Of a stretch of DNA of 64,000 nucleotides, positions 13,598 to 36,221 are shown in pieces (within the stretch, counting starts at the first letter, position 1; every line of letters begins with the position of its first letter). A program made the translations under genes and the position numbers. The notes under the pieces are model-generated. The model did no database searches. It saw only the letters and a list, made by a program, of their open reading frames with translations, and was not told where the DNA came from. Source of the DNA: Actinomycetota bacterium (GTDB lineage Bacteria > Actinomycetota > Thermoleophilia > Gaiellales > F1-60-MAGs149); the NCBI GenBank assembly GCA_009885805.1, contig VFJZ01000012.1, positions 1-64,000 of the forward strand, read 5' to 3'.

Positions 13598-14425
13598 TCA
13601 GCGCAGGAGCGCGCGCACGTCGTCGGGCTCCATCGGATGCCGACCGACTGCGTGTGCGAGCCGCGCAGCGATCTCGACGAGCTCGGCGTTCGACGCCGCC
13701 TCGCCACCGTCGGGGAGCGTCGAGGAGTCCTGGAACCCGCAGCGGACGTGGTGACCGGCTGCCGCCGCGACCGCCTGTGCAATCGGGCTCGCCTCGTCCT
13801 CGCCGCTCATCACGACGTCGAAGCGCGGGAAGGTGGCGTTGCAGGCGTCCGCGAGTCGCAGGACATTGTGCGGCGTGCCCGCCATGCGACCGGAGCCGTG
13901 GCCGTCGGAGGGGCCCAGCTCGGCGACGATGTACGGCGCCTTCGAGAGGAGCGAGTCGTTGTACAGCGTCTCGAAGTCGCCGAGCGAGTCGACGCCGATC
14001 ACGACCGGCTGCGGCCGGACGCCGGCCCGCTCACACGCCTCGAGGATCTGGCGCGCCTCCTCGCGATGAGCCGGCTGGTCGGGCTCGGGCGGCCGGACGC
14101 CGACGGTGGCGAGGTCCGGCGGTGCGCGCAGGACGTCGAACAGGGCCGTGACCGTCCCGAGCGACGTCGCCCGCGTGCGCTGCGTCGAGATCGAGATCGG
14201 CACGTCGACCTTGCCGCGGATCGCCGCGACGACGTCGTCGATGACGAGATCGAACGCGGGGAGCCCGTCCTTCCGGCGCACGTGGACGTGGATCACGCCG
14301 GCGCCAGCGTCCACCGCCCGCTTCGCCTCCGTCGCCAGCTCGTCGGCGCTGATCGGCAGCTTCGGGCACTCCAGTCGCGAGCGCATGCCGTTCAGCGCCG
14401 CCACGATCAGCATCGCGTCGCTCAT
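13598..14425 (-). CDS. BKACE-family enzyme (DUF849, beta-keto acid cleavage / Kce-like)
   Basis: A 275-residue TIM-barrel protein of the beta-keto acid cleavage enzyme family, which uses a divalent metal to condense a beta-keto acid with acetyl-CoA and release acetoacetate plus a CoA ester. The metal/histidine motif reads AGVIHVHVRRKDG, and later barrel strands show VDVPISISTQRT, PQPVVIGVDS and HHVRCGFQDS. The family acts on varied substrates (3-keto-5-aminohexanoate, beta-ketoadipate, dehydrocarnitine), so the true one is unknown. The ATG overlaps the otsA stop by 4 bp (ATGA), an odd pairing with trehalose synthesis. Confidence 0.85.
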   Translation of the reverse strand: MSDAMLIVAALNGMRSRLECPKLPISADELATEAKRAVDAGAGVIHVHVRRKDGLPAFDLVIDDVVAAIRGKVDVPISISTQRTRATSLGTVTALFDVLRAPPDLATVGVRPPEPDQPAHREEARQILEACERAGVRPQPVVIGVDSLGDFETLYNDSLLSKAPYIVAELGPSDGHGSGRMAGTPHNVLRLADACNATFPRFDVVMSGEDEASPIAQAVAAAAGHHVRCGFQDSSTLPDGGEAASNAELVEIAARLAHAVGRHPMEPDDVRALLR

Positions 14426-15891
14426 CGTCCACCTGCCCCGACGATCGAGTCGAGATCGGCGAGCTGAGCGGCGATCCAGGCGCGAACGTCGTGCGCTCTG
14501 ACGTGGGTCCGGATCCCCTCGGCACGCCGCCGGCGCTCGTCGTCGGGCATGGCGAGCGCGGCGGCGATCGCATCCGCCGTCCCCTCGAGGTCGAACGGGT
14601 TGATGGAGAGCGCGTGCCCGCCGATCTCCTCGTGGGCGCCGGCGTTCTCGGACAGGACGAGCACACCGTCCCGCTCGTTGACGAGGGGTGCTTCCTTCGC
14701 GATCAGGTTCATTCCGTCGACGATGGCGTTCACAAGGAGGACGTCGTAGTGTTTGTAGGCAGCGAGGGCGAGGGCAAAGTCATCTGACACCCGCAGGTCG
14801 ATCGGCGTCCACCCCGGGTCGGCGAACTGGTCGTTCACCTCGCGAGCGGCACGCTGGATGGCGCCTACGTACTCGGCATACTCGGGGATCTTGAGCCGGG
14901 AGGGGTCCAGTAGCGCCAGCAACCGGACGCGGCCATGCCACTCGGGGTGTCGGGCGAGGAAACGGGCGAACGCCCGGAAGCCGCGGACGACGTTCTTCGA
15001 AGGATCGGTGCGGTCGACGCGCAAGACGAGTCGCTCGGGGAGGTCGGCTGTCAGGCGCTCGGCGGCGGCCGCCACGGCCGGGTGCGCGGCGAGCAGCTCG
15101 AACGCCGCCGGATCGATCGAGATCGGGTACGAACGGACGCTCGCCGCACCGTCGCGCAGCGTCACGCGCGGCCGGACGTGGTCGACGAATGCCTCGGGCA
15201 GATACTCCTCAGCGGTAGCCAGGAAGGCCCGCACGGAACGGGCTGTCTGGAACCCGACGACGTCGGCGCCGAGCAGGCCGCGCAGGAGGCCGAGCCGCAT
15301 ATCTGCCGTCAGAACGCGCCAGGCGTCGGGGCCCGGCCAGGGGATGTGCGTGAAGTGGGAGAGCGGGGTGCGCAGACCGAGGTCGCGGAGCATGCGCGGC
15401 ACGAGGTAGAGCTGGTAGTCGTGGACGAGCACGGCATCGCTGTCCGCGCTCTCGGCAGCAACCGCGGCCGCGATCACCTCGTTGACGCGCCGGTACGACT
15501 CCCACGCCGCGCGCGTCGCGGCGGTCATCTCCGGCGTGTACGGGCGATTCCACAGTCCGTGCTGGATGAACCACAGCAACGGGTTGGCGAAGACGTTGTA
15601 GTAGCGGTCGTAGTCGGCCGCCTCGACCTCGACGAGCCGGAGTCGGAACCGATGGCCCGCGCCGTCCGTCTCCTCGGCGGCGACGGTACCGGCGTGTTCC
15701 TGCGCGACGACGACGTCCTCGTCCGAGAGCGCGGCGGCGACCCAGGTGACGTCGTGGCTCGCGATCAGTCCCGACAGTGCCGTGACGAGCCCACCGCCGC
15801 CCCTACGGGCCGTGCGACGCCCGTCGACGCGGTCATATTCGATCGGGCCGCGGTTGGAGACGACGACGAGCCGACGACGCGATGCGGGCAT
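14422..15891 (-). CDS. otsA: Trehalose-6-phosphate synthase
   Basis: A 489-residue GT20 glycosyltransferase joining UDP- or ADP-glucose to glucose-6-phosphate. It starts MPASRRRLVVVSNRGPIEY, with the following GGGGLVTALSGL glucose-phosphate loop. Later motifs include YYNVFANPLLWFIQH, VHDYQLYLVPRML, RVDRTDPSKNVVRGF and the nucleotide-sugar region VDGMNLIAKEAPLVNERDG and LSENAGAHEEIGG. I chose the ATG at 15891; a longer frame back to 15987 would be read through the 117-bp repeat element and has no family match. No otsB phosphatase lies beside it. The promoter, if separate from the htrA operon, would sit in or next to the repeat. Confidence 0.93.
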   Translation of the reverse strand: MPASRRRLVVVSNRGPIEYDRVDGRRTARRGGGGLVTALSGLIASHDVTWVAAALSDEDVVVAQEHAGTVAAEETDGAGHRFRLRLVEVEAADYDRYYNVFANPLLWFIQHGLWNRPYTPEMTAATRAAWESYRRVNEVIAAAVAAESADSDAVLVHDYQLYLVPRMLRDLGLRTPLSHFTHIPWPGPDAWRVLTADMRLGLLRGLLGADVVGFQTARSVRAFLATAEEYLPEAFVDHVRPRVTLRDGAASVRSYPISIDPAAFELLAAHPAVAAAAERLTADLPERLVLRVDRTDPSKNVVRGFRAFARFLARHPEWHGRVRLLALLDPSRLKIPEYAEYVGAIQRAAREVNDQFADPGWTPIDLRVSDDFALALAAYKHYDVLLVNAIVDGMNLIAKEAPLVNERDGVLVLSENAGAHEEIGGHALSINPFDLEGTADAIAAALAMPDDERRRRAEGIRTHVRAHDVRAWIAAQLADLDSIVGAGGR

Positions 15892-15903: not shown

Positions 15904-16020
15904 TACTACGCCGGCGGGGAAAGAGAATGTGAATCGACGCCGCGCGTCGGCTTTGCCGGCGAGGTTCCAGCCGACGCGGATCGCCACACCCGACCACCCT
16001 ATTCCCCGCCGGCGTAGGTA
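15904..16020 (-). repeat. 117-bp terminal-inverted-repeat element, copy A
   Basis: The ends are inverted copies of each other: TACTACGCCGGCGGGGAA at 15904 onward, and TTCCCCGCCGGCGTAGGTA at its right end, giving a 16-bp perfect stem. Read on the minus strand it carries the core GTGGCGATCCGCGTCGGC and GGAACCTCGCCGGCAAAGCC, which is repeated in copy B at 35711-35827. The inner CGCGTCGGCT and AGCCGACGCG form a second 10-bp stem. It fills the spacer between htrA and otsA. There is no coding capacity; it looks like a small non-autonomous (MITE/REP-like) element. Confidence 0.85.
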
Positions 16021-16023
16021 CCG

Positions 16024-17232
16024 TCAACGGCCGATGTTGCGCGGCCGCGTGCCCAGCCGGACCTCGACGAGGCGTCGTCGTCCGTCACGCATGATCTCGA
16101 TCGGGACGACGTCGCCCGGCTCGGCCAGGGCAACGGCTGCAGACAGGTCGGAGGGTTGACGAACCGTCGCCCCGTCGAACGAGACGATGATGTCGCCGTC
16201 CGGGTGGATGAGCCCGTCATCCTGGAAATCGCTCGTCCGTCGCCCGGCGGTCAGCCCGGCCCGTTCGGACGGGCCGCCGGCGGTAATGGCATTCACGAGC
16301 AGGCCGCCGTCGACGGGCAGGTCGAACTGTCGCGCCAGCTCACGCGAGACCGGATACGTCGCGACGCCGAGCCAGGCGTACGGGACGGTGCCCCGCGCGA
16401 CGAGCTCTCGCAGCGCCCGCTCGGCCGCCTCGGCGGGCACGGCGAAGCCGACGCCCGAGCCGGCGTCCGAGGAGCCGTCGACGGCGATCTGCGCGGCGAC
16501 GCCGACGACGCGGCCGCTCGCGTCGAGCACGGGGCCGCCAGAGTTGCCGTGGTTGATCGGCGCGTCCGTCTGGATCACCCCCGGCGTCGCGAAGTCGACC
16601 GCCGGCGGCTCGATCTCCCTCCCCAGCGCCGAGACGACGCCGACGGACAGCGACTGCTCCTGCTCGCGGCCGAACGGCGAGCCGATCACCGCCAGCGGGT
16701 CACCAACATGCAGGGTCGTCGAGCGGCCGAACGTCAGTGGCGAGAGCGGTTCCCGAGAGGGGTCGACCTTCAGCACGGCGATGTCGGAGAACAGGTCGAA
16801 CCCGACCAGCGTTGCCGGCAGCGAGTTGCCGTCCTGGAAGTGGACGTAGAAGTCCCGTCCGGCGCGTACGTCATCGCCGCGGATGCCGGGCTCGGGCGAG
16901 TTCGTGACGACGTGGGCGTTCGTGATGACGTGCCCGTCGGCGGATGCCACGAAGCCGGACCCGTCGACCGGGCTGCCGGCGACGACCGCGCTGATCGTGA
17001 CGACACCGACCGCGCGCTCGCGATAGATGCGCCGCGCGTCGAACACTCCCGACGGCAGGTCGGCGACGACGGTCGCCGTCGGCGACTCGTCGACCGCGGC
17101 GCCGGGCACGACGGCAGTCACGGTCCGGCCGGGTCCGTCATCGATCGCGCGCTCGCCGAGGAGGGCGACGCCACCGCCGATACCGCCGGCGACGACGACC
17201 GCCGCAATCAGTCCGAACCTGCCGCCGCTCAC
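16024..17232 (-). CDS. HtrA/DegP-family serine protease with PDZ domain
   Basis: A 402-residue membrane-anchored protease acting outside the membrane on misfolded envelope proteins. An N-terminal helix at about 7-27 anchors it. The trypsin-like domain has the triad H107 (VITNAHVV), D150 (LFSDIAVLKV) and S231 (HGNSGGPV). A C-terminal PDZ domain begins near residue 300 (GGLLVNAITAGGPSERAGL). It is encoded right after a regulator-kinase pair, overlapping the kinase gene by 4 bp, in the same order as MprA-MprB-PepD in mycobacteria. This suggests the system senses envelope stress and controls this protease. Confidence 0.93.
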   Translation of the reverse strand: MSGGRFGLIAAVVVAGGIGGGVALLGERAIDDGPGRTVTAVVPGAAVDESPTATVVADLPSGVFDARRIYRERAVGVVTISAVVAGSPVDGSGFVASADGHVITNAHVVTNSPEPGIRGDDVRAGRDFYVHFQDGNSLPATLVGFDLFSDIAVLKVDPSREPLSPLTFGRSTTLHVGDPLAVIGSPFGREQEQSLSVGVVSALGREIEPPAVDFATPGVIQTDAPINHGNSGGPVLDASGRVVGVAAQIAVDGSSDAGSGVGFAVPAEAAERALRELVARGTVPYAWLGVATYPVSRELARQFDLPVDGGLLVNAITAGGPSERAGLTAGRRTSDFQDDGLIHPDGDIIVSFDGATVRQPSDLSAAVALAEPGDVVPIEIMRDGRRRLVEVRLGTRPRNIGR

Positions 17233-35621: not shown

Positions 35622-35695
<74 letters not shown>

Positions 35696-35710: not shown

Positions 35711-35827
35711 TACTACGCCGGCGGGTAGATACGGTTGCCCGGGCGTGGCGATCCGCGTCGGCTGGAACCTCGCCGGCAAAGCCGTCTCACCGCCGCCGAT
35801 CTACATTCTTTCCCCGCCGACGTAGTA
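35711..35827 (+). repeat. 117-bp terminal-inverted-repeat element, copy B
   Basis: Same length as copy A (15904-16020) and in opposite orientation. It starts TACTACGCCGGCGGGTA and ends TTTCCCCGCCGACGTAGTA, giving a terminal inverted repeat of 15 bp with one mismatch. The core GTGGCGATCCGCGTCGGC and GGAACCTCGCCGGCAAAGCC is identical to copy A for about 40 bp, while the flanks differ more. It lies between tRNA-Ile and the LAGLIDADG gene and has no coding frame of note. Confidence 0.85.
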
Positions 35828-35876: not shown

Positions 35877-36221
35877 ATGGCCAACGTCCCCGAAGACGGC
35901 TCGTTCGAAGCCGGCGTCCTCGTCGGACTCCTCGTCGGCGAGGGTCACTTCGGGGGCGACGGCCGGCGCGCGCAGGTCACGTTGCGGATGCACACGCGCC
36001 ACCGGGCCATCTTCGAGTGGCTGGTCGAACAGGTGCCCGGAGGACGACTCTACGGCCCCTACGACCACTCCGGACGCTCCTACTACCAGTGGATGGTGCG
36101 CGGCACCGCGCTCCGTGAGGAGCTCGTACCGTTCCTGGCTCGCCACCTCGATCCAGCCCTCGACGCTCACGTCTACGGACGGTTCCGGGACATGTGCGAA
36201 CGCTACGGACTCGACGCGTGA
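35877..36221 (+). CDS. Single-motif LAGLIDADG-type protein coupled to rsmG
   Basis: A 114-residue protein with one LAGLIDADG-like motif at about residues 13-24 (GVLVGLLVGEGHFGGDG; the acidic residue is Glu in GEG), followed by a beta-rich segment (RAQVTLRMHTRHRAIFEWLV, GGRLYGPYDHSGRSYYQWMV) typical of the homing-endonuclease half-domain. Such single-motif proteins act as dimers. It is not inside an intron or intein. Its TGA overlaps the rsmG GTG (GTGA), so it is translated with a housekeeping operon, which suggests domestication as a DNA-binding or regulatory protein. A GTG at 35868 is an alternative start. Confidence 0.78.
   Translation: MANVPEDGSFEAGVLVGLLVGEGHFGGDGRRAQVTLRMHTRHRAIFEWLVEQVPGGRLYGPYDHSGRSYYQWMVRGTALREELVPFLARHLDPALDAHVYGRFRDMCERYGLDA

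Follow-up and report, generated by a model that had tools for sequence, protein, structure and literature searches.

In the usual view, bacterial MITEs are passive hairpins, in which the ends are conserved and the middles are disposable. Transposons of the IS630 family are characterized by TA on both sides of their insertions. The known elements nearest in kind to those described here are ERIC/IRU, Correia (NEMIS) and RUP, i.e. MITEs of the IS630/mariner type from enterobacteria, Neisseria and pneumococcus. The ends of RUP match IS630-Spn1 (PMC3049150), while RNase E or RNase III cleaves the transcripts of ERIC and Correia, in the case of ERIC in an orientation-dependent manner (PMC10969869, PMC3049150). 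In Streptococcus pneumoniae, the BOX repeat encodes a gene's stop codon in 36 cases (PMC3049150).

Copies A and B and their relatives in the same genome

The window, i.e. the whole stretch of DNA analyzed here, comprises 64,000 nucleotides of contig VFJZ01000012.1 from an Actinomycetota bacterium of Thermoleophilia, a class of soil bacteria (assembly GCA_009885805.1). It contains two elements, A and B, for which R denotes the conserved strand, whose fold has G-U pairs in the relatives (plus for A, minus for B), and F its complement. The features are listed below; a TA at each end lies inside the coordinates of either copy, hence the narrower limits of the element proper.

15904..16020, plus strand: copy A, including the TA on either side (element proper 15906-16018)
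15906..15921, plus strand: left terminal inverted repeat of A, CTACGCCGGCGGGGAA, which matches the ends of IS630 transposons of the same genome
16002..16018, minus strand: right terminal inverted repeat of A, complementing the left arm perfectly over 16 nt, with one extra G before the TA
15948..15987, minus strand: 40-bp core, the same in A, B and a further copy, C; its minus-strand reading is GTGGCGATCC...AAAGCCG
35711..35827, minus strand: copy B, including the TA on either side (element proper 35713-35825)
35745..35784, plus strand: 40-bp core of B
16024..17232, minus strand: htrA-like protease (trypsin-like/PDZ), upstream neighbor of A; stop codon 16024-16026, 3 bp past the right TA
14422..15891, minus strand: otsA-like glycosyltransferase 20, downstream neighbor of A; start at 15891, 12 bp from the left TA
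35622..35695, minus strand: tRNA-Ile(GAT) adjoining copy B
35877..36221, plus strand: small ORF without a Pfam match, situated downstream of B and running in the direction of its F strand

The preliminary description of this DNA had claimed that A and B are of equal length and opposite orientation, with similar inverted ends and an invariant 40-bp core. All this was borne out: both measure 117 bp and have in common an identical run of 40 bp, GTGGCGATCCGCGTCGGCTGGAACCTCGCCGGCAAAGCCG. The stems of A are perfect, as had been stated, over 16 bp in the outer one (15906-15921 with 16002-16017) and over 10 bp in the inner one (15943-15952 with 15969-15978). The two copies match each other with an E-value of 2.5e-27 in a search of the whole genome; their likeness is not due to chance. 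Copy A has a folding energy of -71.7 kcal/mol (z about -6 against shuffles), and B folds less stably (-52.4, z about -2.4). The genes that A was said to separate, htrA and otsA, do encode a protease with PF13365 and PDZ domains and a PF00982 protein. The htrA-like stop codon, the element and the otsA-like start codon follow one another, all on the minus strand, in a layout that is looser here than at the copies of the relatives, and A may fold into a hairpin if htrA and otsA share a transcript. The small ORF downstream of B (115 codons including the stop) has a start that appears LAGLIDADG-like by eye (VGLLVGEGHFGGDG).

The 117-bp sequence, used as a query against the entire genome as had been proposed, matches A, B and two further places, termed here C (contig C30) and D (contig C24). 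These copies are about 185 bp each and possess the ends of A and B around a longer middle; their folds have z-scores of -6.5 (C) and -4.2 (D), and C lies beside a tRNA gene other than the one adjoining B. All four copies are flanked by TA. Thus, the length of the 117-bp unit was given correctly, but it is not the intact form. The parts of the C and D middle that are missing from A are not those missing from B, which indicates separate internal deletions and makes the equal length of A and B coincidental; in all likelihood, both are shortened copies that play a passive role. A fifth, diverged relative (E, contig C17) retains the core between other ends, TAGTGCACCGCAGCGG...CCGCTGCGGCACACTA. Altogether the genome holds five dispersed copies of this short (117-185 bp) element devoid of a transposase gene, a count that comes from sequence searches, in which decayed copies may be missed.

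A search for the IS630 catalytic domain revealed three copies in this genome, two of which have ends like those of A-D (G000:C10 and C13). One of them, L327, is a complete element of about 1.1 kb that contains a 362-aa ORF and matches at both ends (TACTACGGCGGCTTGTAAATAGG / ACGTCGGCTTGTAAACAGG), and the other, L323, has a 340-aa ORF and a matching right end, TACTATGGCGGCGGGCAAACAG, while its left end is not recognizable. With E-values of 1.8e-60 (L323) and 1.8e-57 (L327), both ORFs score far above the NCBIfam cut-off for IS630 family transposase. Against a 22-nt consensus of the A-D ends, 19-22 identical positions are reached only by the eight ends of the MITEs, the right end of L323 and the ends of L327, with a runner-up of 17/22 among about 265,000 positions of own-genome loci. 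The same-ended transposase that the preliminary description regarded as the means to name the helper is therefore present, and in the window's genome the MITE and IS630 have terminal inverted repeats in common. The ends of these transposons, TACTAYGGCGGCGGG(C/T)AAACAG and TACTACGGCGGCTTGTAAATAG, match A-D; unlike A-D, L323 and L327 encode a transposase, and their visible likeness to A-D is limited to the ends.

Among relatives with high copy numbers, the IS630 DDE_3 domain is absent from most at E 1e-5, and it was detected in 3 of the 17 tested members of the class outside the window's family. The helper can therefore be named for the window's genome only; in other hosts it either has been lost, has diverged too far or is another one. 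An inspection of 26 + 5 loci, found with a terminal-repeat pattern in five genomes, yielded no ORF-bearing autonomous element with GTGCCCC ends; each end of this kind that was read out had its partner no more than about 250 bp away.

The class-wide family and its fold

C and D, aligned with one copy from a different genus, display 12 double-sided changes among 39 predicted pairs. The covariance model built from these three sequences led to more relatives, whose core is related and reads AGCnAGCnnGGCAAGGACGCAGGGAGC[hairpin]GCGACTGAGGACGC. From such relatives only, with no copy from the window's family, we built a second model, R2 (type II), which has matches in 102 of the 129 genomes from the order and in 215 of the 399 from the class Thermoleophilia, with up to 43 copies per genome (18-43 in one genus). 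When R2 was run over ten loci, C and the copies from G002 and G001 came at the top, at 24-26 bits and with E-values from 2e-4 to 7e-4; D ranked fifth (17.9 bits, E 0.02). These matches constitute a modest independent link between the window's family and the class-wide relatives.

By the exact core pattern, the hosts are Thermoleophilia and other Actinomycetota MAGs; the same pattern has no match in IMG/VR, nor has copy A in the plasmid and phage collections. Scans of the window and 32 loci against Rfam 15 identified no family at the gathering score except tRNA, and permissive scans gave sub-threshold matches. We found no description of such elements in Thermoleophilia in the literature, our coverage of which was incomplete, and the class-wide family is so far without a name. 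Matches to the 26-40 bp core from a first-pass BLAST (L007-L010 and L042-L070 except L044) were discarded, as most are chance matches in coding sequence (e.g. for HIT-family proteins).

Among 78 distinct sequences, 94.5% of the pair cells are occupied by standard pairs (at most 47% in controls with slid partners), in an alignment that was fitted to the covariance model and so favors the structure, and in which most of the outer stem lies outside the model and was placed by Watson-Crick score only. Double-sided changes occur in 484 cells, compared to 134 in shuffled alignments and at most 91 with slid partners. On the R strand, columns 1-20 of the outer stem contain 182 G-U against 6 A-C for the class as a whole, while the numbers within one genus are 132 and 6; for columns 14-20 the counts are 134 against 2 and 94 against 2, respectively, and the excess of G-U occurs in both directions of the pair. 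The sequences are related, and neither the covariation nor the wobble counts represent independent events. The predominance of G-U over A-C on one strand points to a constraint on a single strand, an asymmetry that would be unexpected for a double-stranded binding site. The conclusion that the core fold has been selected, and kept by compensatory change, across Thermoleophilia is strongly supported.

The family also includes a number of variants. Several very short derivatives, L178 (G052:C83) of about 41 bp and L174/L184 of about 95-120 bp, have kept the terminal repeats and lost the entire core, which suggests that the ends can persist by themselves. In L165, L170, L171, L181, L187 and L073, another core (AAGnCAGAGGCCGCACTCG...GTCGAGGGTGGACTCTG) lies within the same terminal repeats, sometimes in the same genomes, and cores thus seem to be exchangeable between ends. 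Conversely, in the g11 genomes (L239-L247, L252 and others) the same core is combined with two more families of terminal repeats, CTAGGAGGGTTTGGCGGAA and CTAAGAGCCCCTTTCATAATGG, the former often situated between convergent genes. Four copies from G110 (L168, L182, L185, L192) carry an extra hairpin in the core (AGCCGGCGTAGGCTCGACGGAGCCGGCC...) and are thereby longer, a form seen in that genome only, and in G043 (C101:62702-62988) two core matches on the same strand, about 42 bp apart, may represent a tandem copy.

Insertion sites and placement between genes

The joined flanks of 16 occupied junctions from one genome were searched against three congeners, and most of these junctions are uninterrupted in at least one of them. 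For instance at dnaX-ybaB (L251; genes named by eye), the empty site GAGGAGTAGCCGTGG corresponds to the occupied GAGGAGTA[162 bp]TGACTATGG, and a CTAG site, CTAGATCGG, has become CTA[element]TACTTTGG. The empty sites of L251 and L252 are consistent with duplication of TA followed by later change, and that of L249 with one indel; those of L234, L236 and L244 do not give a clean TA reading. Target duplication of TA is thus indicated by the flanks of A-D and by the empty sites of L251, L252 and L249 in relatives. Several copies in the genome, TA flanks, empty sites for the same family in relatives and IS630-family elements with the same ends all agree with the earlier suggestion of a non-autonomous element.

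Some copies appear old enough to be shared between congeners: two pairs at orthologous sites are 97.5% and 93% identical, compared to 89-91% for their flanks, and a third pair, with 79%, has diverged more than its flanks. Certain junctions are occupied in more than one genus, namely rpsL-rpsG in three (L163 in G110, L105 in G041 and L106 in G112; genes assigned by eye), rplW-rplB in two (L118 in G076 and L144 in G065; genes assigned by eye from translations) and PDH E1-E2 in two. A location shared by relatives, which had been proposed as a mark of a functional site, is seen at these three junctions and may stem from inheritance or from repeated insertion; most of the tested junctions are empty in congeners.

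The position of the elements relative to genes, according to our own codon-based gene calls, exhibits a pronounced bias. Of the 62 copies with clear limits, 45 have on both sides a gene directed opposite to R, and 4 have on both sides a gene directed with R (binomial p = 8e-10); within one genus the corresponding numbers are 31 and 7. In the commonest arrangement a gap of exactly 2 nt separates the downstream start codon from one end, and the upstream stop codon abuts the other. Of 41 ends on the start side, 33 contain an SD-like 4-mer, compared to 15.7 expected from shuffles and to 5 in windows 40 nt further in. Many copies are flanked on the left by CA instead of TA.

Origin of the elements and comparison with known systems

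Judging from the shared ends and target sites, A and B are very probably internally deleted MITEs, which the host's IS630-family transposases mobilize into TA. Such transposases would carry the element by its ends to TA sites, and where the TA belongs to a stop codon (TAG, TAA), little would be lost, as the first base of the element would restore TAG. The outward SD-like end would replace the SD displaced from the next gene. The R fold is rare in mRNA, most simply because it would harm expression. We infer that the persisting copies would be those in which the stop codon is restored, a ribosome-binding-like end is supplied and the strong fold is antisense to the operon. The fold itself would work as RNA or single-stranded DNA, either for the propagation of the element or for a tolerable insertion; if it has a positive role, a step in propagation is favored, or else RNA processing. 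The variation of terminal repeats between subfamilies within one genome would be unusual for a single transposase and weighs against this reading, as do the scarcity of IS630 in high-copy relatives, the CA flanks, the empty sites without a clean TA duplication and the missing left end of L323. For the class as a whole, we tentatively envisage a mobile family that relies on a conserved single-stranded fold (operon-antisense RNA or single-stranded DNA), has repeatedly exchanged or re-evolved its terminal repeats, borrows different transposases and inserts between stop and start codons in essential operons, a scenario that we regard as possible rather than probable.

The preliminary description had also considered a conserved structured site, and there is something to this idea, as the fold covaries class-wide and the same ribosomal-operon junctions are used in different genera. 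Its strongest version would be an element used by the host, e.g. an intercistronic RNA or a device for translational coupling, spread by mobility and kept by selection at many sites. It would account for the exact fit between stop and start codons, the SD-like ends, the reuse of the rpsL-rpsG, rplW-rplB and PDH E1-E2 junctions, and the two ortholog pairs that are more alike than their flanks. We nevertheless consider it unlikely, since the third ortholog pair shows the opposite, most of the tested junctions are empty in congeners, and the G-U asymmetry indicates the operon-antisense strand and not the mRNA. Moreover, much of the fold is gone in A and B, and the three copies at rpsL-rpsG are by eye not mutually closest and do not all lie at the same distance from the start codon, one of them being spaced differently, as would fit repeated insertion.

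A fold constrained on one strand could alternatively be explained by a REP/BIME-like system, in which a Y1 transposase (RAYT, IS200/IS605) acts on single-stranded DNA, and Y1 domains do occur in 82 of 129 genomes. Their co-occurrence with the repeats is inconsistent, and this helper was rejected on account of many-copy genomes that are at least 90% complete: G064 (at least 16 copies) and G040 (at least 12), both 91% complete, are without a Y1 match. Long, TA-flanked terminal inverted repeats and ends matching IS630 are not Y1 features either, and we judge such a system very improbable. A chance duplication, or a recombination or nucleoid signal fixed at two places, fits the window itself, which has just two copies, but has a negligible probability in view of the five copies present in the genome, the hundreds of relatives across the class and the polymorphism of presence and absence; the further copies and the class-wide family refute a two-copy chance duplication.

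With A and B thus best regarded as shortened MITEs of a larger family, the usual relation between ends and middle is reversed: the middle is conserved with one-strand covariation across the class, the ends are variable, and copies reside in ribosomal and respiratory operons. This raises the questions of a selected RNA-like function on a MITE and of how essential operons come to tolerate such elements. The covariance model can be used to annotate hundreds of unexplained intergenic repeats in Thermoleophilia.

Like ERIC, Correia and RUP, the elements are imperfect palindromes of 100-200 bp, intergenic and often located within operons, with a high copy number and no ORF; the likeness to ERIC is one of described features, as Rfam scans, by which homology was judged, gave no match. 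Unlike them, the present family is GC-rich, belongs to Thermoleophilia and has a core more conserved than its ends. It further differs in the strong covariation, the G-U pairs on one strand, the nearly exact placement from stop to start codon, and the class-wide spread with several unrelated terminal repeats. With the BOX elements of Streptococcus pneumoniae it shares the supply of stop codons, folded transcripts and a modular interior, while the sequence, size and modules are different, and the ends of BOX are similar only to ISSpn2.
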